From Actinomyces radicidentis (GTDB lineage: Bacteria > Actinomycetota > Actinomycetes > Actinomycetales > Actinomycetaceae): a stretch of DNA of 64,000 nt. Position numbers and translations under genes: made by a program. Position 1 is the stretch's first letter; every line of letters starts with the position of its first letter. The DNA is taken from the NCBI RefSeq assembly GCF_001553565.1, contig NZ_CP014228.1, forward strand, positions 2,170,001 to 2,234,000, read 5' to 3'. This document shows, piece after piece, positions 24,482 through 59,598 of this stretch. The notes under the pieces are model-generated. The model saw only the letters and a list, made by a program, of their open reading frames with translations, did no database searches and had not been told where the DNA came from.

Positions 24482-25393
24482 GTGAGCAAGCGCAAGGACC
24501 ACTGGCACCCCGGCACCCCGATCGAGACCGAGGACGGAGCCCCCGTCGTCGGCACCTCCATGGGCTTCCTCGACAACCCGGGGGCCCAGCGCGTCAGCCG
24601 CGTCGCCGCCCTCGCCTCCCGCCGCGCCCGCACCAAGCACGGCCGCTTCCTCGTCGAGGGTCCCCAGGGCGTGCGCGAGGCCGTCGTCCACCAGCCCGCC
24701 CGTGTCCAGGACCTCTACCTCACCCAGGCCGCCCTCGAGCGCCACTCCGACGTGCTCGCCGCCGCCCAGGACGCTGGCGTCTACGTCCACCTCGTCACCG
24801 AGCAGGTGATGTCCGCGATGAGCACCGACGCCCAGGGCGTCCTCGCCGTCGTCGCCACCGCCGCGGGCGCCGACGCTGCCACGGGTGTCGAGGCCCTCAC
24901 CGCGGTCCTCGAGCGGGGCGCCCGCCTCGTCGCCGTCCTCACCGAGACCCAGGACCCCGGCAACGCCGGCACCATCATCCGCGCCGCCGACGCCGCGGGC
25001 GCCGACGCCGTCGTCCTCGCCCGCGGCTCCGTCGACCCCACGAACCCCAAGGTCGTGCGCTCCACCGCTGGCAGCCTCTTCCACCTGCCCGTCGTCTCCG
25101 ACCTCACCCTCGACGAGGCCGTCACCGCTCTCAAGGCCGCGGGGCTGTCCGTCCTGGCCGCCGACGGCGCGGGGGAGACCGGCCTGTACTCGCCGGCCGC
25201 CGACGAGCTCCTCGCCGCGCCGAGCGCCTGGCTGCTCGGCAACGAGGCCCGCGGCTTCGCCCCGGCCACCCTCGCCGCCGCCGACGCCGTCGTCTCCATC
25301 CCCGTCTACGGCGAGGCCGAGTCCCTCAACGTCGCCACCGCCGCCGCGATCTGCCTCTACGCCTCCGCCCGCGCCCATCACGCGGGGGAGTGA
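24482..25393 (+). CDS. TrmH/SpoU-family RNA 2'-O-methyltransferase
   Basis: The protein (303 aa) is a SPOUT-fold rRNA or tRNA methyltransferase. An N-terminal substrate-binding domain (RFLVEGPQGVREAV) precedes the SPOUT domain with its three motifs: ETQDPGNAGTIIRAADAAGAD, LLGNEARGF, and IPVYGEAESLNVATAAAICLY. GTG 24482 lies 7 nt after TAGGCT (24469-24474) with no ribosome site: probably leaderless. The first ~30 residues are not conserved. The exact nucleotide target is not known. Confidence 0.88.
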   Translation: MSKRKDHWHPGTPIETEDGAPVVGTSMGFLDNPGAQRVSRVAALASRRARTKHGRFLVEGPQGVREAVVHQPARVQDLYLTQAALERHSDVLAAAQDAGVYVHLVTEQVMSAMSTDAQGVLAVVATAAGADAATGVEALTAVLERGARLVAVLTETQDPGNAGTIIRAADAAGADAVVLARGSVDPTNPKVVRSTAGSLFHLPVVSDLTLDEAVTALKAAGLSVLAADGAGETGLYSPAADELLAAPSAWLLGNEARGFAPATLAAADAVVSIPVYGEAESLNVATAAAICLYASARAHHAGE

Positions 25394-25502
25394 CCCGAGA
25401 GACTGGCCCGTCCCGCAGCGCCTAGCGGGTCCGGGAGGTCGGGCGCCCGGACCCGAGGCGACCCGCCTACGGACGTGTGTCGGGCAGATCACGCGACGGT
25501 GC

Positions 25503-25508
25503 TAGCCT
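25503..25508 (+). promoter_or_regulatory. Candidate -10 of the sugar ABC operon
   Basis: TAGCCT, about 190 bp before the first permease. No clear -35. The leader behind it contains hairpin CCGTCC/GGACGG and the Cys-rich leader peptide. Confidence 0.4.
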
Positions 25509-25598
25509 GCGGGAGCCGTCCGAGGCCGGACGGCGGTGAGCGGGCCCCGTGGCACCGCCGCCGCAATCAGGGGCTGACCGCCCGGGAAGAGGGACATC

Positions 25599-25634
25599 GT
25601 GCCGATGGGGATGCACTGTCGCTGCTGTCGCTGA
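25599..25634 (+). CDS. Leader peptide MPMGMHCRCCR upstream of the sugar ABC transporter
   Basis: GTG 25599 follows GAGGGA (25589-25594) and encodes an 11-residue peptide MPMGMHCRCCR, with three Cys codons among the last five. ATG 25611 would give MHCRCCR. The stop is 64 nt before the permease start. Short Cys-rich ORFs act as cysteine-responsive attenuators in mycobacteria (established), and this ORF fits that class. A matching arrangement precedes the amino-acid transporter at 32505. Confidence 0.5.
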   Translation: MPMGMHCRCCR

Positions 25635-25677
25635 GACGCAGCCACTGCTCCCCCGTCCCTCTGAGGCCCAGCCTCCC

Positions 25678-25694
25678 GAACCCGCACGAGGTTC
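25678..25694 (+). promoter_or_regulatory. Hairpin over the ribosome site of the first permease
   Basis: GAACC (25678-25682) can pair with GGTTC (25690-25694). The GAGG ribosome site (25688-25691) lies in the loop and stem, 6 nt before the TTG start. The same GAACC-loop-GAGGTTC layout recurs at 32640-32655. Confidence 0.5.
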
Positions 25695-25697
25695 TCA

Positions 25698-26630
25698 TTG
25701 CCCGCACACCACACCGCCAGAACCGCCCCGCCGGCAGCCGTGCCGCGCCGTGGAGGACAGCGCGCAGCCCGCGTCCGCGAGGCGGTCACCGGCTACGCCT
25801 TCCTGGCCCCGAGCGTCCTCGGTGTCCTGCTCTTCATGGTCGTGCCCGTCGGCGTCATCGTCTGGCTGGCCTTCCACAAGTGGGACCTCATCTCCTCCCC
25901 GGAGTTCGTCGGCCTCAGTCAGATCACCGACACACTCGGTGACCCCGAGTTCAGGTCCTCCATCGGCATCACGCTCGGGCTCGTCGTCCTCGTCGTGCCG
26001 GTGCAGATCGTCCTCGGCCTGGCACTGGCCAACATGCTGACGAAGGGCGTGCGCGGCACCAACGTGCTGCGAGCGCTCATCGTCATCCCGTGGATCTCCT
26101 CGCCGCTCGCCCTCGGGGTCGTGTGGTCCTGGCTCCTGGCGCCCACGGGAGGCGTGCTCTCGACGATCGCCGGGCACCGGCTCGAGATCCTGGTGTCGGA
26201 CACCTGGGCGCTTCCGGCCGTCGCCTTCGTCGTCATCTGGAACCAGGTGGGCTACACCTCCCTCTTCTTCATCGCGGGACTCCTGTCCATCCCGTCCGAG
26301 CTCATCGAGGCGGCCTGGGTCGACGGCGCCAGCCCCTCCCAGATCTTCTGGCGCATCAAGGTGCCGCTGCTGCGCCCGACCTTCTTCTTCGTCTCCGTCA
26401 CCTCGGTCATCGCGGCGTTCAACGTCTTCGACCAGGTCTACGCCCTCACCGGCGGCGGGCCCGACGGGAAGACCTCCGTGCTGGCTTACCAGATCTACTC
26501 GACGGCCTTCGTCGACTGGAACATCGGCAAGGCCTCCGTCATGGCCCTGGTCATGTTCCTCATCCTGCTGGCCATCACGCTCGCCCAGAACCTCTACTTC
26601 CGCAGGAGGACGACCTATGAGCTCGTCTGA
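25698..26630 (+). CDS. Sugar ABC transporter permease (MalF/UgpA type)
   Basis: This inner-membrane permease (310 aa) has six predicted helices and the EAA loop IEAAWVDGASPSQIFWRIKVPLLRP, which contacts the ATPase. It pairs with the MalG-type gene that overlaps by 14 nt. The start is taken as TTG 25698 after GAGG; GTG 25740 is an alternative. The CUT1 operon (permease, permease, binding protein) has no ATPase gene, so a shared MsmK/MsiK-type ATPase elsewhere is needed. Confidence 0.85.
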   Translation: MPAHHTARTAPPAAVPRRGGQRAARVREAVTGYAFLAPSVLGVLLFMVVPVGVIVWLAFHKWDLISSPEFVGLSQITDTLGDPEFRSSIGITLGLVVLVVPVQIVLGLALANMLTKGVRGTNVLRALIVIPWISSPLALGVVWSWLLAPTGGVLSTIAGHRLEILVSDTWALPAVAFVVIWNQVGYTSLFFIAGLLSIPSELIEAAWVDGASPSQIFWRIKVPLLRPTFFFVSVTSVIAAFNVFDQVYALTGGGPDGKTSVLAYQIYSTAFVDWNIGKASVMALVMFLILLAITLAQNLYFRRRTTYELV

Positions 26631-27507
26631 GACCGTCCTGCCGAACCCCGTCTCCGCCCGCCGTCCGCGCGCCCGCGCCGTCGACCGGCGCGGTCCGCTG
26701 GCCACGGTCGGGATCTACCTGGGCCTGGGCCTGGCCGCCGCGATCATGGTGCTGCCCTTCGCGTTCTCCTTCGTGACGGCCTTCAAGTCCCCCCAGGACT
26801 TCGCCTCCCACTCCCCGCTGTCCCTGCCGACGACGTGGACCCTGGAGTCCTTCGAGGAGGTGCTGAACGGGCGGATCGCCATGATCGCCTCCATCGGCAC
26901 GACCCTAGCGATGGTCGTGGTCATGGTCCTCGTCCAGGTCTCCTCATCGGTCCTGGCGGCCTACGCCTTCGCGCGTCTGCGGTTCCCGGGCCGCGACGCG
27001 ATCTTCTGGTTGTTCCTCTCGACGATGATGATCCCGTCGACCGTCCTCGTTATCCCGCTCTACCTCATGATGTCGAAGGCCGGTCTCGCGAACACCTTCT
27101 GGGGCCTCGTCATTCCCTTCATGCTGGCCTCGCCGTACGCCGTCTTCCTCCTGCGGGAGAACTTCAAGGCGATCCCGCAGGAGCTCATCGACGCCGCCCG
27201 CGTCGACGGCGCCGGCAGCCTGCGCACCCTCCTGCAGATCGTCCTGCCGATCTCCCGACCGATCCTCGCGACGCTCACGCTCATCACCGTGGTGAGCCAG
27301 TGGAACTCCTTCATGTGGCCCCGGATCATCGCCAACCAGGACCCGAAGGTCATCACCGTGGCGACCGCCGCCATGCAGTCCCAGTACACGTCCAACTGGA
27401 CCTACGTCATGGCCGCCACGACCCTCGCCCTGGTCCCCCTCATCATCCTGTTCGTCCTGTTCCAGAAGCAGATCGTCGCCTCGATCGTGCTCACCGGACT
27501 CAAGTAG
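26617..27507 (+). CDS. Sugar ABC transporter permease (MalG/UgpE type)
   Basis: This second permease (296 aa) has six predicted membrane helices and the EAA loop IDAARVDGAGSLRTLLQIVLPISRP. Translation is coupled with the upstream permease. The MalG-type C-terminus ends GLK, as usual. Substrate specificity is set by the binding protein that follows. Confidence 0.88.
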   Translation: MSSSETVLPNPVSARRPRARAVDRRGPLATVGIYLGLGLAAAIMVLPFAFSFVTAFKSPQDFASHSPLSLPTTWTLESFEEVLNGRIAMIASIGTTLAMVVVMVLVQVSSSVLAAYAFARLRFPGRDAIFWLFLSTMMIPSTVLVIPLYLMMSKAGLANTFWGLVIPFMLASPYAVFLLRENFKAIPQELIDAARVDGAGSLRTLLQIVLPISRPILATLTLITVVSQWNSFMWPRIIANQDPKVITVATAAMQSQYTSNWTYVMAATTLALVPLIILFVLFQKQIVASIVLTGLK

Positions 27508-27554
27508 GCCGCCCCGCCGGGCGCGCCGAGCCCCACCAAGGAAAGAGAGAACCC

Positions 27555-28925
27555 ATGTCCCTCAGCGCATCCTCAGTCTCCCGCCGTTCCCTCCTGCGCG
27601 CGGGCGGCATGACCGTCTCCGCCGGCGCCATCGCCTCCGTCCTCGCCGCGTGCACCTCCACGCGCACCGACGACTCCTCCTCGTCGTCGTCCTCCGGCGG
27701 CTCCCTCACCTTCCGCCTGTGGGACGAGGGCGCGGCCTCCGCCTACGAGGAGGCGCTCACGTCCTTCACCGAGGACACCGGCATCGAGGTCAAGATCGAG
27801 CAGGTCGCCTGGTCCGACTACTTCACGACCCTGCGCAACGACATCGCCGCCGGCAGCGCCCCCGACGTCTTCTGGGTGAACGCCTCCAACTACGTCGACT
27901 ACGCCGCCGCGGGCAAGCTCCTCGACATCGAGAAGACCTTCCCCGAGTCGGAGCGCACGGGCTGGCTCGAGGCCGCCATGGACCAGTACACGGTGGACGG
28001 CAACCTCTGGGGCGTTCCCGCGATGACGGACCCGAACATCGCGGTCTACTACAACAAGGAGCTCCTCGACGCCGCCGGCGTGTCCGTCGAGGACCTCGCC
28101 GACCTCGCCTGGGATCCCACTGCTGAGTCGGACACCCTCCGAGAGATCGCCACGAAGCTCACCCTGGACAAGGCCGGGAAGACGCCTGCCGACGACGGTT
28201 TCGACTCCGGTAATATCGTCCAGTTCGGCTACAACGCCGCTTCCGACCTCCAGGCGATCTACCTTCCGTGGCTCGGTGCCAACGGAGCCACCTACCAGGA
28301 CGACGACGGTCAGATGTCCTTCGCCTCCGACGCGGGCATCGAGACCTTCCAGTACATCGTCGACCTCATCAACGAGGACCACGTCTCCCCGTCCGCAGCG
28401 GACACGAACACCAACGGCGACTTCAGCCGGGACCAGTTCATCCAGGGGAAGATGGGCCTCTTCCAGTCGGGTGCCTACAACCTCGCCAACATCAAGGACG
28501 GCGCCGACTTCGAGTGGGGCATCGTCGAGCTCCCGCAGGGCCCGAAGGGTCGCGGAGGCGTGGTCTCCGCCGTCGCCGCCGTCGGCTCCGCCGCCTCCAC
28601 GAGCACTGACGCCCAGAAGAAGCTCCTCGCCTGGATCGGCTCCGCCGACGGGTCGAAGGTCCTCGGGGAGAAGGGCGTGGGTCTGCCGGGCAACACCGAC
28701 GCCCAGGACTCCTGGAAGACGTACTGGACGGACCAGGACGTCGACGTCACGCCGATGATGACGATCGACCCGGACACGTCCCTGCCCGGTCCCTGGGGCG
28801 CCAAGATCCAGGCGGCCATGGACGCGACGAACAAGGTGCTGCCCTCGGTCTTCCTCGGCAAGAAGGACGTCGCCGAGGGCCTCAAGGAGGCCCAGGACGC
28901 CGGCAACGCCGCCATCGACGGCTGA
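27555..28925 (+). CDS. Sugar ABC transporter substrate-binding lipoprotein
   Basis: This extracellular solute-binding protein family 1 member (456 aa) begins with a twin-arginine type signal (SVSRRSLLRAGG) and a lipobox LAAC, so it is a lipid-anchored protein exported folded. The mature part starts with a Ser-rich linker and has WDEGAASAYEEALTSF, DVFWVNASNYVDYAA and VPAMTDPNIAVYYNKELLDAAGV, typical of CUT1 binding proteins. RBS AAGGA precedes the ATG. Sugar is unknown; the nearby GH4 and PfkB genes suggest an oligosaccharide or glycoside. Confidence 0.88.
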   Translation: MSLSASSVSRRSLLRAGGMTVSAGAIASVLAACTSTRTDDSSSSSSSGGSLTFRLWDEGAASAYEEALTSFTEDTGIEVKIEQVAWSDYFTTLRNDIAAGSAPDVFWVNASNYVDYAAAGKLLDIEKTFPESERTGWLEAAMDQYTVDGNLWGVPAMTDPNIAVYYNKELLDAAGVSVEDLADLAWDPTAESDTLREIATKLTLDKAGKTPADDGFDSGNIVQFGYNAASDLQAIYLPWLGANGATYQDDDGQMSFASDAGIETFQYIVDLINEDHVSPSAADTNTNGDFSRDQFIQGKMGLFQSGAYNLANIKDGADFEWGIVELPQGPKGRGGVVSAVAAVGSAASTSTDAQKKLLAWIGSADGSKVLGEKGVGLPGNTDAQDSWKTYWTDQDVDVTPMMTIDPDTSLPGPWGAKIQAAMDATNKVLPSVFLGKKDVAEGLKEAQDAGNAAIDG

Positions 28926-29025
28926 CCTCGGCTCCGTCCCGGACCCGCCCAGGACCACGACCAGCCGGGGCGGGGCGCGCACCCGCGCCCCGCCCCCGGC
29001 GCACCCACCGCTCGAGAGGAGCACC

Positions 29026-29814
29026 ATGCCCGCCCTCGTCCCCGCGCAGGCCCTCGACCCGGCTGAGGACCCCGCTCCTGGTCTCCCGAGCGTCCTCGCC
29101 GTCTACGCGCATCCCGACGACGCCGACGTGGGCGCCGGCGGAACGCTCGCGCGCCTGGCCCGGACCGGTCACGACGTGGCGCTCGTGCTGGTCACCTCGG
29201 GGGACGTAGGCGGGTTCGAGAACGCGGGGCAGGACCGCATGAGCGAGCGACGTCGGGGCGAGCAGCGCGAGGCCGCAGCCGCGCTGGGCATCACCGACGT
29301 CACCTTCCTCACCGGGTATCGGGACGGGCACGTGCGCGAGGGCATGGGCACGGAGCAGGCGGGGCTCGTGCGCGACGTCGTCGCCGCGGTCCGCCTCCAC
29401 CGCGCCGACCTCATCCTCACCACCTCGCCCGAGTACAACTTCGGCTCCACGGCCGCCAACCACCCCGATCACCGCGCCGTCGGCCGCGCGGTGGTCGAGG
29501 CCGCCTACCCGGCCGCCGGCAACCCCTTCGACTACTGCGAGCTCGGGGCCCAGGGGCTCGAGGCCCACGACCCCCTCGAGGTCTGGTTCCAGGGGCACAG
29601 GGAGGTCAACCACGTCGTCGCCCTCGCCCCGGAGGACCTCGACGCCAAGGTCTCGGCGGTGCGCTCGCACCCGAGCCAGTTCCAGGACCTCGACGGCATC
29701 GAGACCTTCGTACGCTCCCGCGCTGCGGAGGAGGTGGCGGGCACCGGGGACGCGGAGGCGGGGGAGCGCTTCTACCGCTGGGTCATCCGCGGCCTCGACG
29801 GTTCACTCGGCTGA
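29026..29814 (+). CDS. PIG-L (LmbE)-family zinc deacetylase
   Basis: The protein (262 aa) belongs to the PIG-L/LmbE family of zinc-dependent N-deacetylases, which act on GlcNAc-type substrates, including mycothiol and bacillithiol precursors. Zinc and catalytic residues appear in AHPDDAD (H29, D31, D32) and NHPDHRAV (H146, H149). RBS AGGAG precedes ATG 29026. It is 100 nt after the binding protein and may be in the same operon, so an amino-sugar released from the imported molecule is a plausible substrate. Confidence 0.8.
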   Translation: MPALVPAQALDPAEDPAPGLPSVLAVYAHPDDADVGAGGTLARLARTGHDVALVLVTSGDVGGFENAGQDRMSERRRGEQREAAAALGITDVTFLTGYRDGHVREGMGTEQAGLVRDVVAAVRLHRADLILTTSPEYNFGSTAANHPDHRAVGRAVVEAAYPAAGNPFDYCELGAQGLEAHDPLEVWFQGHREVNHVVALAPEDLDAKVSAVRSHPSQFQDLDGIETFVRSRAAEEVAGTGDAEAGERFYRWVIRGLDGSLG

Positions 29815-29824
29815 GTCCTGGGAC

Positions 29825-29840
29825 GGTGCGCTCGCGCACC
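29825..29840. terminator. Short hairpin between convergent genes
   Basis: GGTGCGC-TC-GCGCACC, a perfect 7-bp inverted repeat between the convergent deacetylase and PfkB genes, without a T-tract. Confidence 0.4.
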
Positions 29841-29881
29841 GGGACCGCGGATTGTACGCGGCTCAGGCCCGGCCCCGGCTC

Positions 29882-30862
29882 TCAGCCGGGAAGGTCGGTG
29901 AAGGACAGGTCGAAGCCGCTCGGCCCCGTCGGCAGGCCCGCTGCGAGGGCCCACCCGGCGGCCTCCGCGAGGCTCGGGGCACCGAGCGAGCCGCCTGGGC
30001 GCCCAACCGCCAGGCCGCCGGTCACCGAGGCGAGGCTGAGCGACGCCCGCAGACCCAGTCCGGCTGCGAGGCCCGCGACGAGCCCCGCCGTGAAGTCGTC
30101 GCCCGCTCCGGTCGTGTCGATCGCATCCACGGGAGCCGCCGGCAGCACGACCTCCTCGTCGCCGGAGCAGGCGACGACGCCGTCGGCGCCGCAGGTGACG
30201 ACGGCGAGCGGGACCCGTCGTGCGAGTGCCCGCGCCGCGTCCCGCGGTGAGTCGGTCCGCGTGTACCGCTGCGCCTCCGCGTCGCTGGGAGTGAAGACGT
30301 CGATGAGCTCCAGCGGCTCCAGGTCCGCCGCGCTCCACCGGCCGCTCGCGTCCCAGCCGACGTCGCCGACGACGGCGGTCGGGGCCGCGCCCGAGCGCCA
30401 TCCGCGCACGGGTTCCTCGTTGCGGGCCACGTGCCGCAGGTCGGTGACGAGGACGGACGGTGAGATCTCCCAGCCCGCGAGGCGGACGGCGGTGTCCGAG
30501 CCGGCCGTCGTCATGGCGCGGTCGCCGTCGTAGGCGAGGGAGACGGTCACGTTCTGCGCGGGTGCGCTCACGCACCCGGACAGGTCGAGTCCTGCATCAG
30601 CGAGCGCTGCGCGGACGAGTCCGCCGGTCTCGTCCTGGCCGAGCTCGGTTCTCAGCGCCACGGGCAGTCCCAGACGGGCGAGCGAGACGGCCTGGTTCGC
30701 CCACCCGCCGGGCGTCATCGTGCACGACGCCCCCCACTGCTCCTCGCCGAGGCGCGGGGCGTGCTCGAGGCCTGTCATGATGACGTCGAGGAAGACGGGG
30801 CCGGCCACCGCGATCGGGTGGTCGTGGGACGGCCGGACGGGCACGAGCGAGCGGGTGGGCAC
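29882..30862 (-). CDS. PfkB-family carbohydrate kinase
   Basis: This ribokinase-type sugar kinase (326 aa) has the first PfkB signature in GGWANQAVSLARLG and the ATP/catalytic motif DTTGAGDDFTAG near residue 230. It starts at GTG 30862 on the minus strand with GGAGG 4 nt before it. It is divergent from the GH4 gene across 116 bp, so the pair may share control. It probably phosphorylates a sugar released by the nearby hydrolase or deacetylase. Confidence 0.85.
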   Translation of the reverse strand: MPTRSLVPVRPSHDHPIAVAGPVFLDVIMTGLEHAPRLGEEQWGASCTMTPGGWANQAVSLARLGLPVALRTELGQDETGGLVRAALADAGLDLSGCVSAPAQNVTVSLAYDGDRAMTTAGSDTAVRLAGWEISPSVLVTDLRHVARNEEPVRGWRSGAAPTAVVGDVGWDASGRWSAADLEPLELIDVFTPSDAEAQRYTRTDSPRDAARALARRVPLAVVTCGADGVVACSGDEEVVLPAAPVDAIDTTGAGDDFTAGLVAGLAAGLGLRASLSLASVTGGLAVGRPGGSLGAPSLAEAAGWALAAGLPTGPSGFDLSFTDLPG

Positions 30863-30978
30863 AGGACCTCCGTGGGCGGGGTTGGGAAGAGCGAACGGAA
30901 CATCGCCCCGACTCTAGGGCCCCGTGCGATAGCCTGCCCGCGGCGCGCAACTGGTGCGTCGCACGGAGGTTACCGTTC

Positions 30979-32403
30979 ATGAAGCTGCTCATCGTCGGAG
31001 GCGGAGGCTTCCGCGTCCCCCAGGTCGTCGAGGTCCTCGCGGCCGCCCGCGCCGGCTCCGGGCTGTACCCGGGCCTCGAGGTGGACGAGGTCTGCCTGTA
31101 CGACACCTCGGCCGCGCGCCTGGACGTCATGCGCGCCGTCCTGCGGGACCTAAACTACCCGCAGGCTCCGATCATCACCTCGACCACCGACGTGCGCGAG
31201 GCCGTGGCCGGCTCGGACTTCATCTTCTCCGCGCTGCGCGAGGGCGGTACCCACGGGCGCGTCATCGACGAGCTCGTGGCCCTCAGAGAGGGCGTCCTCG
31301 GCCAGGAGACGGTGGGAGTCGGCGGATACGCCTACGCCTTCCGCACGGTCCCGGCCGCGATGGAGCTGGCCCGGGCGGTGCGGGACCTGGCGCCGGAGGC
31401 CTGGGTCATCAACTTCACCAACCCGGCGGGCATCATCACGCAGGCGATGCGCTCCGTGCTCGGCGACCGCGTCGTGGGCATCTGCGACACCCCGATCGGC
31501 CTGGTGCGCCGTGCGACGGCGGCCGTCGGCGGGGACGCGGCGCGCGTCTCGCAGGTGGCGCAGGGCTCGGACGTGGACTTCGACTACGTGGGTCTCAACC
31601 ACCTGGGTTGGCTGCGGAGCCTGACCGTGGCCGGCGAGGACCGCCTCCCGGCTCTGCTCGCGGACGACGAGGCGCTGGACCACATGGAGGAGGCCCGCAC
31701 GATCGGCGCCGACTGGCTGCGCACGATCGGGATGCTGCCCAACGAGTACCTCTTCTACTACTACCTGAACAGAGAGTCGGTGGCCCGCATCCGCGAGGAG
31801 GCGGAGACCCGCGGTCAGTTCCTCGAGCGCCAGCAGGGCGCCTTCTACGACGCCGTCGCGGCCGAGCCGGGTCGTGCGGGCGAGCTGTGGACCCGCACGC
31901 ACGACGAGCGCGAGGCGACCTACATGGCGGAGTCGCGCGAGGAGTCGGAGCGCGCCGGCCGCCGTGCGGAGGACATCGCGGGCGGCGGCTACCAGCAGGT
32001 GGCGCTCGACCTCATGACGGCGCTGCGCACGGGCGCGCCGGCCCGCATGGTGCTCGACGTCGGCAACGCCGACGCCCACGCCGGGGACGGCCAGGGGCTC
32101 GTGGTGCCGCAGCTGCGCGAGGACGCGGTCATCGAGGTGCCCTGCGTCGTGGACGCGGACGGCGTGCACCCGCAGCGCGTGGGCGCCCTGGGCGGCCCGG
32201 AGCTGGGCCTGGTCGCGAGCGTCAAGGGCTGCGAGGAGCTCGTCATCGAGGCGGCTCTGTCCGGCGACGAGCGCCTCGCGTGGCGAGCACTGGCCTCGCA
32301 CCCGCTGGTCGACTCGGTCAACGTGGCGCGTCGCGTGCTGGACGGCTACCTGGAGAGGAACCCCGGCGTGGCGCGCACCTTCGGGCACCGCGTCAGGCAC
32401 TGA
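30979..32403 (+). CDS. GH4-family 6-phospho-beta-glucosidase-like hydrolase
   Basis: The enzyme (474 aa) is a family 4 glycosidase, which uses NAD+ and a divalent metal. The N-terminal NAD fold starts LLIVGGGGFRVPQVV. The conserved set is present: NFTNPAG (145-151), C169 in ICDTP and H208 in NHLGW, the metal ligands. Family members cleave 6-phospho-glycosides; the exact linkage is not readable. GGAGG precedes ATG 30979, and a -10-like TAGCCT lies about 45 bp upstream. No PTS for a phospho-glycoside is nearby, so the substrate may be phosphorylated by the PfkB kinase. Confidence 0.88.
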   Translation: MKLLIVGGGGFRVPQVVEVLAAARAGSGLYPGLEVDEVCLYDTSAARLDVMRAVLRDLNYPQAPIITSTTDVREAVAGSDFIFSALREGGTHGRVIDELVALREGVLGQETVGVGGYAYAFRTVPAAMELARAVRDLAPEAWVINFTNPAGIITQAMRSVLGDRVVGICDTPIGLVRRATAAVGGDAARVSQVAQGSDVDFDYVGLNHLGWLRSLTVAGEDRLPALLADDEALDHMEEARTIGADWLRTIGMLPNEYLFYYYLNRESVARIREEAETRGQFLERQQGAFYDAVAAEPGRAGELWTRTHDEREATYMAESREESERAGRRAEDIAGGGYQQVALDLMTALRTGAPARMVLDVGNADAHAGDGQGLVVPQLREDAVIEVPCVVDADGVHPQRVGALGGPELGLVASVKGCEELVIEAALSGDERLAWRALASHPLVDSVNVARRVLDGYLERNPGVARTFGHRVRH

Positions 32404-32435
32404 GACGCGTGGGCGGCGGTGGTCGCCGTCGGTGC

Positions 32436-32441
32436 TATCGT
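32436..32441 (+). promoter_or_regulatory. Candidate -10 of the gluABCD-type operon
   Basis: TATCGT, 64 bp before the leader peptide. GTCCCG/CGGGAC and GTCCG/CGGAC hairpins follow in the leader. Confidence 0.4.
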
Positions 32442-32504
32442 CACGAGCACGCCCGTCCCGGCCCTCGGGACGCAGGCGTCCGTTTCCGGACAGGAGGGAG
32501 CGTC

Positions 32505-32552
32505 ATGAGCGCGCTGACCCGTCGCTGTCGTGGCTGTCGACTCCACCACTGA
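32505..32552 (+). CDS. Leader peptide [15 protein letters not shown] upstream of the gluABCD-type operon
   Basis: ATG 32505 follows a strong GGAGGGA site and encodes [15 protein letters not shown], with a CRGCR core. It ends 107 nt before the ATPase start. A hairpin (CCCGAG/CTCGGG outer, GGGCC/GGCCC inner; 32558-32597) begins 6 nt after its stop. The CRxCR core matches the peptide at 25599. It is probably a regulatory leader peptide that senses charged tRNA-Cys or tRNA-Arg. Confidence 0.6.
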
Positions 32553-32557
32553 GCGCC

Positions 32558-32597
32558 CCCGAGCAACCAGGGGCCGCCGTCGGAGGCCCTCCTCGGG
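32558..32597 (+). promoter_or_regulatory. Attenuator-like hairpin behind the leader peptide
   Basis: CCCGAG (32558-32563) pairs with CTCGGG (32592-32597), and GGGCC (32571-32575) with GGCCC (32585-32589). A ribosome stalled on the two Cys codons (32526-32537) would sit just ahead of it. Confidence 0.45.
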
Positions 32598-32639
32598 CTC
32601 CGCACCAGCCACCACCCGTCCGCGAGGCCACGGCCTCCT

Positions 32640-32655
32640 GAACCCAGCGAGGTTC
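32640..32655 (+). promoter_or_regulatory. Hairpin over the ribosome site of the ATPase gene
   Basis: GAACC (32640-32644) can pair with GGTTC (32651-32655); the GAGG site (32649-32652) is partly inside and lies 6 nt before the GTG start. It is nearly the same element as 25678-25694. Confidence 0.5.
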
Positions 32656-32658
32656 ACC

Positions 32659-33438
<780 letters not shown>

Positions 33439-33520
33439 CACCGTCCCACCGCCGCGCCCGGCGGCGCCGCCCGTCCTCACGGGCGACGGCCCGGGCGCAC
33501 CCCACGAAAGGTTCACTCCC

Positions 33521-34519
33521 ATGACCACGTTCTCGCGTCGCACCCTCCTCTCCGTCACCGGCGCCGCCGGCGTCGCCGCGGTCCTCGCCGCCTGCTCCGA
33601 CACGGGCGCCGACGGCAAGTCCGTCTCAGAGTCCTCCGCCTCCTCGAGCGCCTCGGGCGGCGCGGAGTCCTACGACACGATCATCAACTCCGGCCCGGTC
33701 GCCTCCGACGACGAGGTCTCGGCCTCCACGTGGGCCAGCGCCGTCAAGAAGGCCGGCACCTTCAAGATCGGCGGCACGAAGACGAACCAGGTCTTCAGCC
33801 TCGAGGACCCGACGACCGGCAAGGTCACCGGCTTCGACGCCGCCATCTCCCAGCTCCTCGCCCGCTACATCCTCGGCGGCGACGACGCCTCCTCCCTCGT
33901 CGAGATCACGCAGGCCACCTCCGACACCCGCGAGACCCTCCTCGAGAACGGCTCCGTCGAGGCGGTCTTCGCGACCTACACCATCACGCCGGAGCGCGCG
34001 GAGAAGATCACCTTCGCGGGCCCCTACTACGAGTCCGGCCAGACCGTCCTCGTCAAGGCCGACAACGACAAGATCACCGGCGTCACGTCGCTCACGAGCG
34101 GCGTCAAGGTGGCCGTCCAGGCCAACTCGACCTCCGTCCAGGCCGTCACGGAGCACGCCCCCGACGCCGAGCAGGTCCAGTTCGAGACGGACTCCGACTG
34201 CGTCGCCGCGGTCGAGGCGGGGCAGGTCGACGCCTACGTCCTCGACGAGGCCGTCCTGCTCGCCACGGTCGCCTCCAACGACAACGTCAAGCTCGTCGGC
34301 GAGCCCTTCACCACCGAGCCCTACGGCATCGGCCTGCCCAAGGACTCCGACGGTCAGGCCTTCGTCAACGCCTTCCTCGCCAAGATCGACGAGGACGGCA
34401 CCTGGACCAAGGTCTGGGAGAACACGATCGGCTCCATCACCCACGGCACCGCCCCCGAGCCGCCCGTCATCGGCTCCGTCGAGGGCGCGGCCACCGCCTC
34501 CGCCACCCCCACCGCCTGA
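33521..34519 (+). CDS. gluB: Amino-acid ABC transporter binding lipoprotein (GluB type)
   Basis: This family 3 solute-binding protein (332 aa) has an FSRRTLLSVTGAAG signal with two arginines and lipobox LAAC, so it is a lipoprotein, probably Tat-exported. A Ser-rich linker follows. The binding-protein core is seen in GKVTGFDAAISQLLARYI, SVEAVFATYTITPERAEKITFAGPYY and VEAGQVDAYVLDEAVLL. AAAGG precedes the ATG. Confidence 0.87.
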   Translation: MTTFSRRTLLSVTGAAGVAAVLAACSDTGADGKSVSESSASSSASGGAESYDTIINSGPVASDDEVSASTWASAVKKAGTFKIGGTKTNQVFSLEDPTTGKVTGFDAAISQLLARYILGGDDASSLVEITQATSDTRETLLENGSVEAVFATYTITPERAEKITFAGPYYESGQTVLVKADNDKITGVTSLTSGVKVAVQANSTSVQAVTEHAPDAEQVQFETDSDCVAAVEAGQVDAYVLDEAVLLATVASNDNVKLVGEPFTTEPYGIGLPKDSDGQAFVNAFLAKIDEDGTWTKVWENTIGSITHGTAPEPPVIGSVEGAATASATPTA

Positions 34520-34618
34520 CGGGCGCAGCCGGACGACGCCGGGTGCGGTGACGCCGGCCGTGGGAGCCCCCACCGGCCGGCGTCACCGCCGGGCAGCCGC
34601 CCACGAGGAAGGGAATCC

Positions 34619-35275
34619 GTGAACGTCATCACCGAGAACCTGGGCCTGCTCGGCTCGGGACTGCTCACGACGCTCCTGCTGGCCGTGACGGGCTACGTCG
34701 GCGCGCTCGTCGTCGGGACCCTCGTCGCCGTCTGCCGTGTCAGCCCGGTGCCGCCGCTGCGCTGGTTCGCCTCGGCCTGGGTCGCCGTCGCCTGCAACGT
34801 CCCGCTCCTGTGCCTCATGATCCTGCTCGCCTTCGGCGTGCCGAGGATCGGTCTGCCGGTCACCCTCATGCGGGCCGCCGTCATCGGGATCGTGTTCTCG
34901 GCGTCCGGCTTCGTGTGCGAGACCGTGCGCTCGGGCATCAACTCCGTCTCGAAGGGGCAGATCGAGGCCGCCCGCGCGCTGGGCATGCCCTTCGGCCTCA
35001 TCATCGGCAAGGTCGTCCTCCCTCAGGCCCTCGTCCGCACCATCCAGCCACTGGTCAACATCTTCATCTCCTGCCTCATCGGCTCCTCCCTCGCCGCCGC
35101 CATCGGCGTGCCCGAGCTCACCAACGTCACCCAGCAGCTCAACCTCCGCTACGCCGAGGCCGTCATCACCTTCCTCGTCTCGGGCCTGACCTACCTCGTC
35201 ATCGCCTTCCTCGCCACTCGGGTCGGCGGGGGCCTCGAGAGACGCGCCGCCGCCAGGACGGAGGCCCGCGCATGA
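34619..35275 (+). CDS. gluC: Amino-acid ABC transporter permease (GluC type)
   Basis: This membrane permease (218 aa) belongs to the HisM/GlnP family with about five helices and the EAA-like loop EAARALGMPFGLIIGKVVLPQAL. GTG 34619 follows GAGGAAGGGA. It overlaps the next permease by 4 nt. Confidence 0.87.
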   Translation: MNVITENLGLLGSGLLTTLLLAVTGYVGALVVGTLVAVCRVSPVPPLRWFASAWVAVACNVPLLCLMILLAFGVPRIGLPVTLMRAAVIGIVFSASGFVCETVRSGINSVSKGQIEAARALGMPFGLIIGKVVLPQALVRTIQPLVNIFISCLIGSSLAAAIGVPELTNVTQQLNLRYAEAVITFLVSGLTYLVIAFLATRVGGGLERRAAARTEARA

Positions 35276-36165
35276 GCGCCCCCACCCAGGCGGCCGTCAC
35301 CGCCACCCTCGGGACCCGGCTCGGACGCCGCCCCCTGAGGACGCGCCGACCGCGGGCCACCGACGCCGACCTCCTCTTCGACGCGCCCGGCCCCCGCGGG
35401 CGACGCCGGATCCTCGTCGCCTCCGTGATCGCGACGCTCGTCATCGTCGGGATCGTCGCGCTCGTCCTGCACCAGGCCGCGGCCGCGGGCCAGCTCGCCT
35501 ACCCCAAGTGGCGGTACTTCGCCGGCGCCTCCATCGTCCGGTTCTTCGGCCGCGCCTTGGGCGACACCCTCGTCGCCACCGGCGTCAGCGCCCTCATCGC
35601 CTTCCCGCTCGGCGTCCTGCTCGGCTGGGTGAGGCTCGGGGCGAGCCGCGCGGTGCGCGGCGTCGTGGGCCTGTGGATCGACGCGATGCGCGCCGTGCCG
35701 ATGCTGCTCCTCGTGTACTTCTTCCTCCTGGCCGTGCCACGGATGGGGCTGACGCTCCCGTACTTCTGGATGCTCGTCATCCCGATCGTCATGTGCTCCT
35801 CGGCGACGACCGCGGAGGTCTTCCGCTCCGGCGTGCTCGCCCTGGACCGCGGTCAGACGGAGGCGGCCCAGGCCCTCGGCATGCGCCACGGGCTCACGAT
35901 GCGACTCGTCCTCGCCCCGCAGGCGCTGCGCCTCATGCTGCCGACGCTCATCACCCAGCTGGTGACGATCCTCAAGGACACGTCGCTCGGCTACGTCGTG
36001 GCGTACACCGAGCTCATGTACGCCGGGCGCCTCATCGTGCAGGCCGCGCGCGTCCAGCAGCTCGACGTCTACCTGCCGGCCTACGTCATCATCGCGGTCA
36101 TCTACGTCGTCCTGAACTGGCTGCTGGGCGCTCTCGCGCGCCTCGTGGAGGCCCGCACGCGCTGA
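35272..36165 (+). CDS. gluD: Amino-acid ABC transporter permease (GluD type)
   Basis: This second permease (297 aa) has a cytoplasmic N-terminus with LLFDAPGPRGRRR, characteristic of corynebacterial GluD, and the EAA loop EAAQALGMRHGLTMRLVLAPQAL. The ATG at 35272 overlaps gluC by ATGA. It ends the operon; pheS starts 92 nt later with its own promoter. Confidence 0.85.
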   Translation: MSAPTQAAVTATLGTRLGRRPLRTRRPRATDADLLFDAPGPRGRRRILVASVIATLVIVGIVALVLHQAAAAGQLAYPKWRYFAGASIVRFFGRALGDTLVATGVSALIAFPLGVLLGWVRLGASRAVRGVVGLWIDAMRAVPMLLLVYFFLLAVPRMGLTLPYFWMLVIPIVMCSSATTAEVFRSGVLALDRGQTEAAQALGMRHGLTMRLVLAPQALRLMLPTLITQLVTILKDTSLGYVVAYTELMYAGRLIVQAARVQQLDVYLPAYVIIAVIYVVLNWLLGALARLVEARTR

Positions 36166-36218
36166 GCCCCCCGGTCTCGCCTTCGCGCCCACGATTTCAG
36201 CGGCCCGACCGCTCGGAC

Positions 36219-36224
36219 TACCCT
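36219..36224 (+). promoter_or_regulatory. Candidate -10 of pheST
   Basis: TACCCT, 33 nt before pheS, with GGAAGG as ribosome site. No T-box or His/Phe-rich leader peptide is visible. Confidence 0.4.
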
Positions 36225-36257
36225 GGGCCCGATCCACGAAGACCGGAAGGCACCCAG

Positions 36258-37343
36258 ATGACTGACGCACCCGGCGCGCTGTCGCCGCTGGACGAGGAGG
36301 GCGTCGGCGCCCTCGTCGAGGAGGGGCTCGCCGCCATCGCAGCGGCAGACTCCCTGCCCGCCCTCAAGGAGGTGCGCCTGGCCTACACGGGTGACGCCTC
36401 CGTCCTCGCCCTCACCAACCGCGGCATCGGCAAGCTCGACAAGGCCGACAAGCCCGCCGCCGGCAAGCTCCTCGGCGGCGCCCGCGGCCGCCTCAACAAG
36501 GCCCTCGCCGAGCGGCAGGCCGTCCTCGAGGCCGAGGCCGAGGCCACCATGCTCGCCACCGAGGCCGTCGACGTCACCGTCCCCACGGACCGCGTCCCCG
36601 CCGGGGCCCGCCACCCCCTCGACGTCCTCGTCGACGAGGTCTCCGACTTCTTCACCTCCATGGGCTGGTCCATCGCCGAGGGGCCCGAGGTCGAGCACGA
36701 GTGGTTCGACTTCGACGCCCTCAACTTCGACGCCGACCACCCCGCCCGTCAGATGCAGGACACCTTCTACGTCGACGGCGCCTCCGTCGGCGCCGCGGAG
36801 GGGCAGCCGGCGAACCTCGTCATGCGCACCCACACCTCCCCGGTGCAGGCGCACGTCATGCTCGACAGCGAGCCCCCGATCTACATCGCCTGCCCCGGCA
36901 AGGTCTTCCGCTCCGACGAGCTCGACGCCACCCACACGCCCGTCTTCCACCAGGTCGAGGGCCTCGCCGTCGACAAGGGTCTCACGATGGGCCACCTCAA
37001 GGGCGTCCTCGACCACTTCGCGAAGTCGATGTTCGGCCCCGAGGCCCGCACCCGCCTGCGCCCGTCCTTCTTCCCCTTCACCGAGCCCAGCGCCGAGATG
37101 GACCTGTGGTTCCCGCAGAAGAAGGGCGGCCCCGGCTGGATCGAGTGGGGTGGCTGCGGCATGGTCAACCCCAACGTGCTCACCGCCTGCGGCATCGACC
37201 CCGAGGTCTCCACGGGCTTCGCCTTCGGCATGGGCCTGGAGCGCACCCTCATGCTCCGCCACGGCATCGCCGACATGCACGACATCGTCGAGGGCGACAT
37301 CCGCTTCTCCCAGCAGTTCGGCACCACCGGAAAGGGGAACTGA
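36258..37343 (+). CDS. pheS: Phenylalanyl-tRNA synthetase alpha subunit
   Basis: The catalytic subunit (361 aa) of the heterotetramer has the N-terminal coiled-coil (residues ~1-95), then class II motifs: HPLDVLVDEVSDFFTSMGW, MQDTFYVD, MRTHTSPVQ (motif 2 area), FRSDELDATHTPVFHQVEG and the motif 3 stretch GFAFGMGLERTLMLRHGI. The start is ATG 36258 after GGAAGG. pheT follows after 1 nt. Confidence 0.96.
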   Translation: MTDAPGALSPLDEEGVGALVEEGLAAIAAADSLPALKEVRLAYTGDASVLALTNRGIGKLDKADKPAAGKLLGGARGRLNKALAERQAVLEAEAEATMLATEAVDVTVPTDRVPAGARHPLDVLVDEVSDFFTSMGWSIAEGPEVEHEWFDFDALNFDADHPARQMQDTFYVDGASVGAAEGQPANLVMRTHTSPVQAHVMLDSEPPIYIACPGKVFRSDELDATHTPVFHQVEGLAVDKGLTMGHLKGVLDHFAKSMFGPEARTRLRPSFFPFTEPSAEMDLWFPQKKGGPGWIEWGGCGMVNPNVLTACGIDPEVSTGFAFGMGLERTLMLRHGIADMHDIVEGDIRFSQQFGTTGKGN

Positions 37344-54190: not shown

Positions 54191-59279
<5,089 letters not shown>

Positions 59280-59479
59280 CGCCCCCCGGCCACGTTCGTG
59301 GCAGGGGGATGAAATGATCTTTTGCGCTTGCGTCCACTGTGCGGTTCACGACCAACCCACCAACCCCGAACAACAACAGGGGGGGGCCGGCCGGTCACGG
59401 CTCGAGCCTCACCTGGCGGGGTTGTGTGACATGTTGGATAGTGGTTTTTCCGACGACCGTGTGTTGCCTGCTTGGTCGT

Positions 59480-59598
59480 CTCGGTGGTCATAGCGGGAGG
59501 GTTCACGCCCGGTCCCATTCCGAACCCGGAAGCTAAGACTCCCAGCGCCGATGGTACTGCACTCGCTAGGGTGTGGGAGAGTAGGACACCGCCGAGCA
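59480..59598 (+). rRNA. rrf: 5S ribosomal RNA
   Basis: TCGGTGGTCATAGCGGGAGG at the start pairs with ACACCGCCGAGCA at the end; CCGAACCCGGAAGCTAAG and GCCGATGGTACTGC are typical 5S segments. It lies about 200 nt after 23S. Confidence 0.93.

Follow-up and report, generated by a model that had tools for sequence, protein, structure and literature searches.

The stretch of DNA analysed here (the window) comprises 64,000 nucleotides of Actinomyces radicidentis (NCBI RefSeq assembly GCF_001553565.1, contig NZ_CP014228.1, positions 2,170,001 to 2,234,000), whose genome is a single contig of 3.05 Mb, and carries two ABC import operons that are each preceded by a short open reading frame (ORF) with several cysteine codons close to its stop. 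The first ORF, leader 1, has the ribosome site AGAGGG 5 nt upstream of its GTG at 25599 and stands before a sugar transporter (usp) operon: its stop is followed after 43 nt by GAACC (25678-25682), then by the ribosome site GAGG (25688-25691) and, 6 nt further on, by the TTG start of the first permease gene at 25698. The second, leader 2, stands before an amino-acid transporter, with 87 nt between its stop and GAACC (32640-32644), GAGG at 32649-32652 and, again after 6 nt, the GTG start at 32659. The ORFs, ribosome sites, hairpins and non-ATG starts lie where a first-pass annotation of the sequence had placed them, and family searches bear out its assignment of one operon to sugar and the other to amino-acid transport. 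The position of these multi-cysteine frames upstream of importers also supports its reading of them as cysteine leaders. Here we propose that each ORF encodes a leader peptide that senses cysteine and regulates the import operon behind it through ribosome pausing, a reading to which we give a probability of about three in four, with translation and the response to cysteine as its predictions.

Leader 1 matches in length, and aligns with, a family of 11-codon leaders found across the genus, which we sampled with 49 Actinomyces genomes. A profile of these leaders (R2) detects one in 42 of the 49; at E<=1e-9 it returns 60 matches, of which 45 had served in training and 15 had not. An earlier profile, R1, was built from 26 amino-acid-transporter loci and the window usp leader; apart from matches where they were expected, it brought up the second, peptide-transporter group. 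By context the 60 R2 matches divide into 35 before an amino-acid operon (26 of them read and nine placed through their coordinates upstream of the transporter), 24 of a peptide-transporter type (gene context inspected for 18, six unchecked) and the window usp leader. Within the genus the R1 list also holds many weak matches, which we take as noise; six of eight weak R2 matches (E 7e-5 to 0.02) were fetched and all were rejected, those in genomes G026 and G040 being left out. Typical peptides are VRMRMCCCCCR, VRMWMCCCCCR and MTKRMCCCCCR, and the family signature is RM-CCC-x-CR within 11 codons. Of the 45 leaders aligned (26 from amino-acid operons, 18 from peptide-transporter operons and that of usp), 44 are exactly 11 codons long and one is nine; each family leader carries three to six cysteine codons, starting at position 6 or later. 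The leaders use TGT and TGC in a ratio of 118:72, whereas eleven window genes (24482-37343) use them in a ratio of 0:19. In 43 of 46 leaders the hexamer TGYTAN occurs between 20 and 150 nt upstream, a frequency to be set beside 9% in shuffles, and the six leaders examined individually have -10-like hexamers 58-148 nt upstream; a sigma-70 scan of both window leaders found no promoter at either. Judged from sequence, conservation throughout the genus at orthologous places takes the leader 1 family beyond chance. The ORFs resemble the cysteine leader peptides already described from actinobacteria, an identification that is well supported.

The operons behind these leaders point in the same direction. 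The amino-acid solute-binding protein has matches at E<=1e-40 in 41 of the 49 genomes, and in 26 of 30 fetched transporter loci, the window locus included, a family leader lies upstream of the ATPase gene behind a GGAGG-like site. The other four loci are those of the window and G011 (L061, L062), which have a leader of the TRRCRGCR type, and those of G006 and G016 (L082, L089), which have no cysteine leader and in which the leader is lost or was never present; all four were excluded from alignments A1, A2 and A4. In both G006 and G016 the gene spoU adjoins the transporter. Eleven further transporter genomes were left unfetched; in nine of them both R1 and R2 match shortly before the transporter, by coordinates, and in two (G008 and G042) neither does. 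In the second group, 18 of 20 fetched stretches hold, by eye, an 11-codon leader of the M..RMCCC.CR type before Opp-like ABC permease frames; the two without a leader (L138, L139) were excluded. The A. radicidentis member of this group (G000:C1:903787-903866, minus strand) precedes an operon in which family searches find OppC- and OppB-like (Opp/Gsi-type) permeases and two binding proteins, the best NCBIfam model for both being the glutathione-binding protein GsiB, at 92 and 108 bits against a cut-off of 594. Going by best matches that all fall below cut-off, the usual targets seem to be a cystine-like importer and a peptide or glutathione-like importer. The pairing of two unrelated transporters proposed for the window is not typical of the family, and the usp leader is a single-genome case.

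The family also has RNA pairing in common. Codons 3-5 of the ORF (GCGAATG or GCGGATG) can pair with CATTCGC or CATCCGC about 20 nt after the stop, forming what we call helix A. In alignment A4, which holds the 45 leaders, 92.4% of 315 cells are paired, compared with 28-48% in slid controls, and 13 cells are changed on both sides, a count matched by none of 500 shuffles. In the usp leader both strands are changed (GATGGGG and CCCCGTC) and pairing is kept; when more 5' sequence is folded, the G and C runs shift register to GGGGA and TCCCC. Around the stop codon a further hairpin reaches 89% pairing in 26 genus leaders, with a C-G to G-C exchange in five sequences, and the four-pair part of a local hairpin over the ribosome site, ACGAG-N3-CTCGT, is 76% paired in the 26 amino-acid leaders. 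For the peptide-transporter group we also considered a trp-like arrangement of four segments, in which a hairpin GAGCGC/GCGCTC competes with a helix A strand, and dropped it on inspection by eye, the competing pairing being short.

Together these features suggest how such a switch might operate. Going by ribosome footprint sizes, codons 3-5 would be covered while the A site holds any of codons 6-10, and would not be covered by a ribosome at the stop. When Cys-tRNA is scarce, a ribosome would halt with a cysteine codon in its A site; it would keep codons 3-5 covered, and helix A would stay open. When cysteine is plentiful the ribosome would reach the stop, codons 3-5 would be bare, helix A could form and importer expression would fall. 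The last step might be a block of ribosome loading at the nearby start, or the action of Rho on the C-rich leader. The features on which the model draws are collected in Table 1.

Table 1. Leader elements and genes at the two window loci (positions in the window; N, any nucleotide).
Feature	Position	Strand	Basis or remark
-10-like hexamer TGCTAG, 99 nt before leader 1	25500..25505	+	TGYTAN pattern
Predicted leader peptide 1, VPMGMHCRCCR, 11 codons, 3 Cys	25599..25634	+	start GTG; genus family; R2 3.1e-10 (training sequence)
Helix A 5' strand GATGGGG, leader 1	25604..25610	+	fold from ORF start
Stop-codon hairpin GCTGC...GCAGC, leader 1	25621..25642	+	folding; counterpart paired in genus leaders (see text)
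Helix A 3' strand CCCCGTC	25651..25657	+	fold from ORF start; other register with more 5' sequence
Hairpin GAGGC-CCA-GCCTC, leader 1	25663..25675	+	folding
GAACC-N7-GGTTC around ribosome site GAGG	25678..25694	+	part of 33-nt stretch common to both window leaders
uspA-like (UgpA/UspA-like) sugar ABC permease	25698..26630	+	start TTG; family search
uspB-like permease	26617..27507	+	family search
UspC-like family-1 solute-binding protein	27555..28925	+	best solved chain 5k2x, second 5k2y (named UspC); 6e-107 and 1.2e-106
PIG-L family de-N-acetylase	29026..29814	+	adjoins usp in 5/5 Actinomyces usp clusters
-10-like hexamer TGCTAT, 72 nt before leader 2	32433..32438	+	TGYTAN pattern
Predicted leader peptide 2, TRRCRGCR type, 2 Cys	32505..32552	+	start ATG; GGAGG upstream; counterpart in G011
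Possible leader 2 equivalent of the helix A 5' strand, GTGGCTG	32530..32536	+	pairs with CAGCCAC in window fold, not in G011 fold
CAGCCAC, possible 3' strand for leader 2	32606..32612	+	within block identical in G011
Hairpin GAGGCC-AC-GGCCTC, leader 2	32624..32637	+	folding
GAACC-N6-GGTTC around ribosome site GAGG	32640..32655	+	also behind G011 counterpart of leader 2
Polar amino-acid ABC ATPase	32659..33438	+	start GTG; family search
Amino-acid solute-binding protein	33521..34519	+	family search; widespread in genus (see text)
Two permeases	34619..36165	+	first: best model NF011680 (cystine permease), 132 bits, cut-off 300

Several results weigh against this model. The covariation score of helix A, 0.208, is reached by six of 500 shuffles; the both-sided changes are confined to one base pair and clustered in related genomes; and the counts of changed pairs and of pair types do not rise above shuffles (464 and 488 of 500 reach them). 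One strand of helix A doubles as coding sequence, and RNAalifold, run on alignment A2, predicts the stop-codon hairpin alone and not helix A. In a duplex test, pairing with the leader's own downstream strand (-11.7 kcal/mol) differs little from pairing with a foreign one (-10.9 kcal/mol), and in most of 27 rows it is no better than with shuffled strands. Taken whole, the two window leaders have folds no more stable than those of shuffled sequences (z -0.8 and -0.9). When RNA under the footprint of a stalled ribosome was blocked from pairing and the remainder folded, a thermodynamic treatment that ignores tertiary and kinetic effects, the mean openness of the ribosome site went from 0.33 to 0.28/0.32 in the 26 amino-acid leaders and from 0.19 to 0.19/0.20 in the 18 peptide-transporter leaders, with no systematic release in either group, and the start codon of the peptide-transporter group likewise did not open (0.25 to 0.23/0.23). 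Nor did the same calculation free the ribosome site in the usp leader (0.32 to 0.36) or in leader 2 (0.03 to 0.11/0.08); it gave a small opening of the start codon in the amino-acid group (0.34 to 0.40/0.40) and the usp leader (0.69 to 0.87). Finally, leader 2 lies outside the 11-codon family and has a counterpart in G011 alone, two genomes in all; its ORF is kept there while the spacer has diverged. We take leader 2 to act like the leader 1 family, on thinner evidence. Conservation in related species, the lack of which the first-pass annotation had named as refuting, is strong for the leader 1 family, limited to one relative for leader 2 and, for the hairpin around the ribosome site, does not reach across the family.

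That hairpin, GAACC/GGTTC, had been proposed as a control architecture shared by the two transporters, and it does not carry over to the family. A search of the 49 genomes for GAACC-N2-8-GAGGTTC-N2-6-DTG gave 32 matches, several of which repeat one site across related genomes; the reversed control gave 10. Among the 30 matches away from the window, all inspected, one lies behind the leader 2 counterpart of G011; eight of the other 29 have short frames with at least two cysteines, a loose criterion, and none resembles these leaders. We therefore rejected the hairpin as a general element of the family, since beside such leaders it occurs twice in the window and once in G011. The two window copies sit in a common 33-nt stretch of 82% identity, which makes a single module in two copies the best reading, and the common stretch probably stems from duplication. 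The GAACC-GAGGTTC pair also lies over the ribosome site of a gene whose product starts MDITVVGRNAE, which we take to be hpf/raiA-like, in A. radicidentis, G012 and G038 (L045, L035 and L053, near 1500).

CRxCR fares no better as a signature. Together with a ribosome site and a stop it matches 56 of 213 family-level genomes, judged by eye nearly always by chance, and the family itself has RM-CCC-x-CR; besides leader 2, a peptide-transporter leader in G003 was the one match that looked real in an unsystematic inspection by eye. The pattern misses G011, in which the ORF start is too distant from the ribosome site.

In trp-type transcription attenuators a ribosome pauses on codons for the regulated amino acid, the leader coding RNA pairs, and a terminator with a T run follows. 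The leaders described here would have codon pausing and coding-RNA pairing in common with these; in contrast, the two window leaders have no terminator with a T run. Neither of them matches a known riboswitch or T-box in Rfam at gathering score. Closer to hand, Canestrari et al. (2020, doi 10.1111/mmi.14498) reported polycysteine leader ORFs of mycobacteria to be attenuators that respond to cysteine. The two systems reportedly have in common a short cysteine-run ORF in an actinobacterium upstream of a cysteine-supply operon, but the Actinomyces ORFs have ribosome-site-like stretches and upstream -10-like hexamers, their targets are importers and their uORF-to-leader pairing has been counted. 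Given these ribosome sites and hexamers, the sequence speaks against leaderless transcripts at the Actinomyces ORFs. Candidate cys leader peptides in Mycobacterium, P. acnes and upstream of B. longum cbs were predicted earlier in a paper that notes no conserved terminator hairpin beside them and terms the mode unknown (Seliverstov et al., 2005, PMC1262725); compared with the candidates as given there, the Actinomyces family shows counted conserved pairing and its genes are transporters. The literature matches listed, which mostly do not cover subscription papers, hold no description of cysteine leader peptides in Actinomyces. Compared with the known actinobacterial cys leaders, the novelty lies in a structural handle, in a further class of importers among the targets and in one case of a leader placed before another operon. 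Since the pairing between ORF and leader has been counted, the ORF is of almost constant length and the targets form two groups of operons, the switch can be tested through exact mutations, and the family predicts which Actinomyces importers serve cysteine supply.

A variant that keeps the cysteine sensor and makes Rho the effector is in our view less likely than not. Here Rho would act on the C-rich leader exposed once the ribosome leaves, and a ribosome stalled on the cysteine codons would prevent it. A scan of the two window leaders found no intrinsic-terminator-like site in either. C exceeds G in all 46 stop-to-start stretches (on average 0.42/0.19 in one main group and 0.44/0.24 in the other), although in a GC-rich genome an excess of C counts for little, and the counts cover leader stretches without control regions. 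Rho was also proposed for the mycobacterial cys leaders by Seliverstov et al. (2005, PMC1262725), who term the prediction weak. Against a role for Rho, helix A would mask part of the C-rich strand just when Rho should act.

The usp operon raises a different alternative. As a family leader stands before the uspABC-PIG-L block, this operon is predicted to be under cysteine control, and it represents a cysteine leader standing before a different operon. The leader may instead be a hitchhiker, an ancestral spoU-leader stretch left or duplicated when the usp block arrived and no longer serving usp, which we consider rather unlikely. In the window, spoU is separated from the amino-acid transporter by leader 1 and a block of usp, PIG-L, pfkB and GH4. 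G011 has leader 2 and then the transporter after spoU, with the usp block absent at that place. In G007 and G044 the order is spoU, usp, PIG-L, pheS; no leader was seen there, and a search at E<=1e-40 did not find the amino-acid binding protein. Nine of the 30 loci have spoU before the amino-acid operon within the fetched flank. UspC-like orthologues at E<=1e-60 occur in five of the 49 genomes, each with PIG-L beside it (in two pieces in G028), and the four other Actinomyces usp clusters have no leader visible before uspA and no R2 match. A wider set of 25 named usp loci, three of them the same Actinomyces, in 23 of which uspA was found, has no family leader within 450 nt upstream (by inspection, the profiles not being run); two Brachybacterium loci do have a small ORF with cysteine 255-389 nt before uspA, but its sequence is unlike these leaders. 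The absence of the leader from other usp loci, the 33-nt stretch that the two window leaders have in common and the reduction of cysteine codons to three in leader 1 are all as a hitchhiker would have them. However, leader 1 still has 11 codons and a ribosome site, and both strands of helix A have changed without loss of pairing, albeit in a register that shifts with more 5' sequence.

It might be that uspABC-PIG-L imports and deacylates a cysteine-bearing amino sugar, such as mycothiol or fragments of it released by neighbours, and has here been put under the genus cysteine leader; we regard this as improbable. The solved chains closest to the window binding protein, 5k2x and 5k2y, are presumably both M. 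tuberculosis UspC. That protein is described as amino-sugar-specific. PIG-L adjoins usp in Ancrocorticia, Pauljensenia and Schaalia as well. A search for MshC gave no match over cut-off in any of the 49 Actinomyces genomes; matches below it, which we take to be cysteinyl-tRNA synthetase, would explain why all 14 control genomes match. Because of this lack of MshC over cut-off, the PIG-L deacetylase is unlikely to serve mycothiol synthesis. The UspC-like binding protein, its PIG-L neighbour and the MshC result are hints towards a cysteine sugar; against it, no other usp operon examined has a leader, and no PIG-L match was found at the usp loci of Brachybacterium, Cryobacterium and Pseudonocardia.

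Two further explanations carry little weight. That the short ORFs encode a functional thiol- or metal-binding small peptide, as conservation of the CCC.C residues might suggest, is very hard to square with their fixed place before importer genes, with cysteine positions that vary while RNA pairing persists, with the TGT bias and with similar frames elsewhere before a cysteine/methionine gene. That they are chance ORFs of a GC-rich genome, for which one could cite the restriction of leader 2 to one other genome and the frequent chance origin of CRxCR patterns, is scarcely credible given a leader 1 family conserved genus-wide at orthologous places and a leader 2 ORF kept in G011 despite spacer divergence.

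Beyond the genus, R1, run on 200 family-level genomes, matched three outside Actinomyces (E 2e-4 to 1e-3), and all three were rejected on inspection. R2, run on 396 genomes of the order, matched 14 outside the genus (E 3e-5 to 0.002); 11 were rejected, mostly as lying within long reading frames, among them a short frame MTTRMCCC in G420. The signature ATGNNNARGCGNATGTGYTGY had no match in 394 genomes of the class, a result that limits its exact form only: the copy in A. radicidentis itself, with GTG as codon 5, escapes the signature, and as this was the sole genus genome sampled there was no positive control. The other three R2 matches (L197, L199 and L193) read MTKRMCC, MNKRMCC and MIRRMCCPTDHC and stand, in another family of the order, before a metY-type gene, that is, one like O-acetylhomoserine/O-acetylserine sulfhydrylase, the gene of L197 alone having been tested by family search; these frames count in favour of the leader-peptide reading.

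Elsewhere in the window, a SAM riboswitch (RF00162, 46.6 bits) lies at 1379-1468 and a complete rRNA operon (16S, 23S, 5S) at 54191-59597, both on the plus strand.

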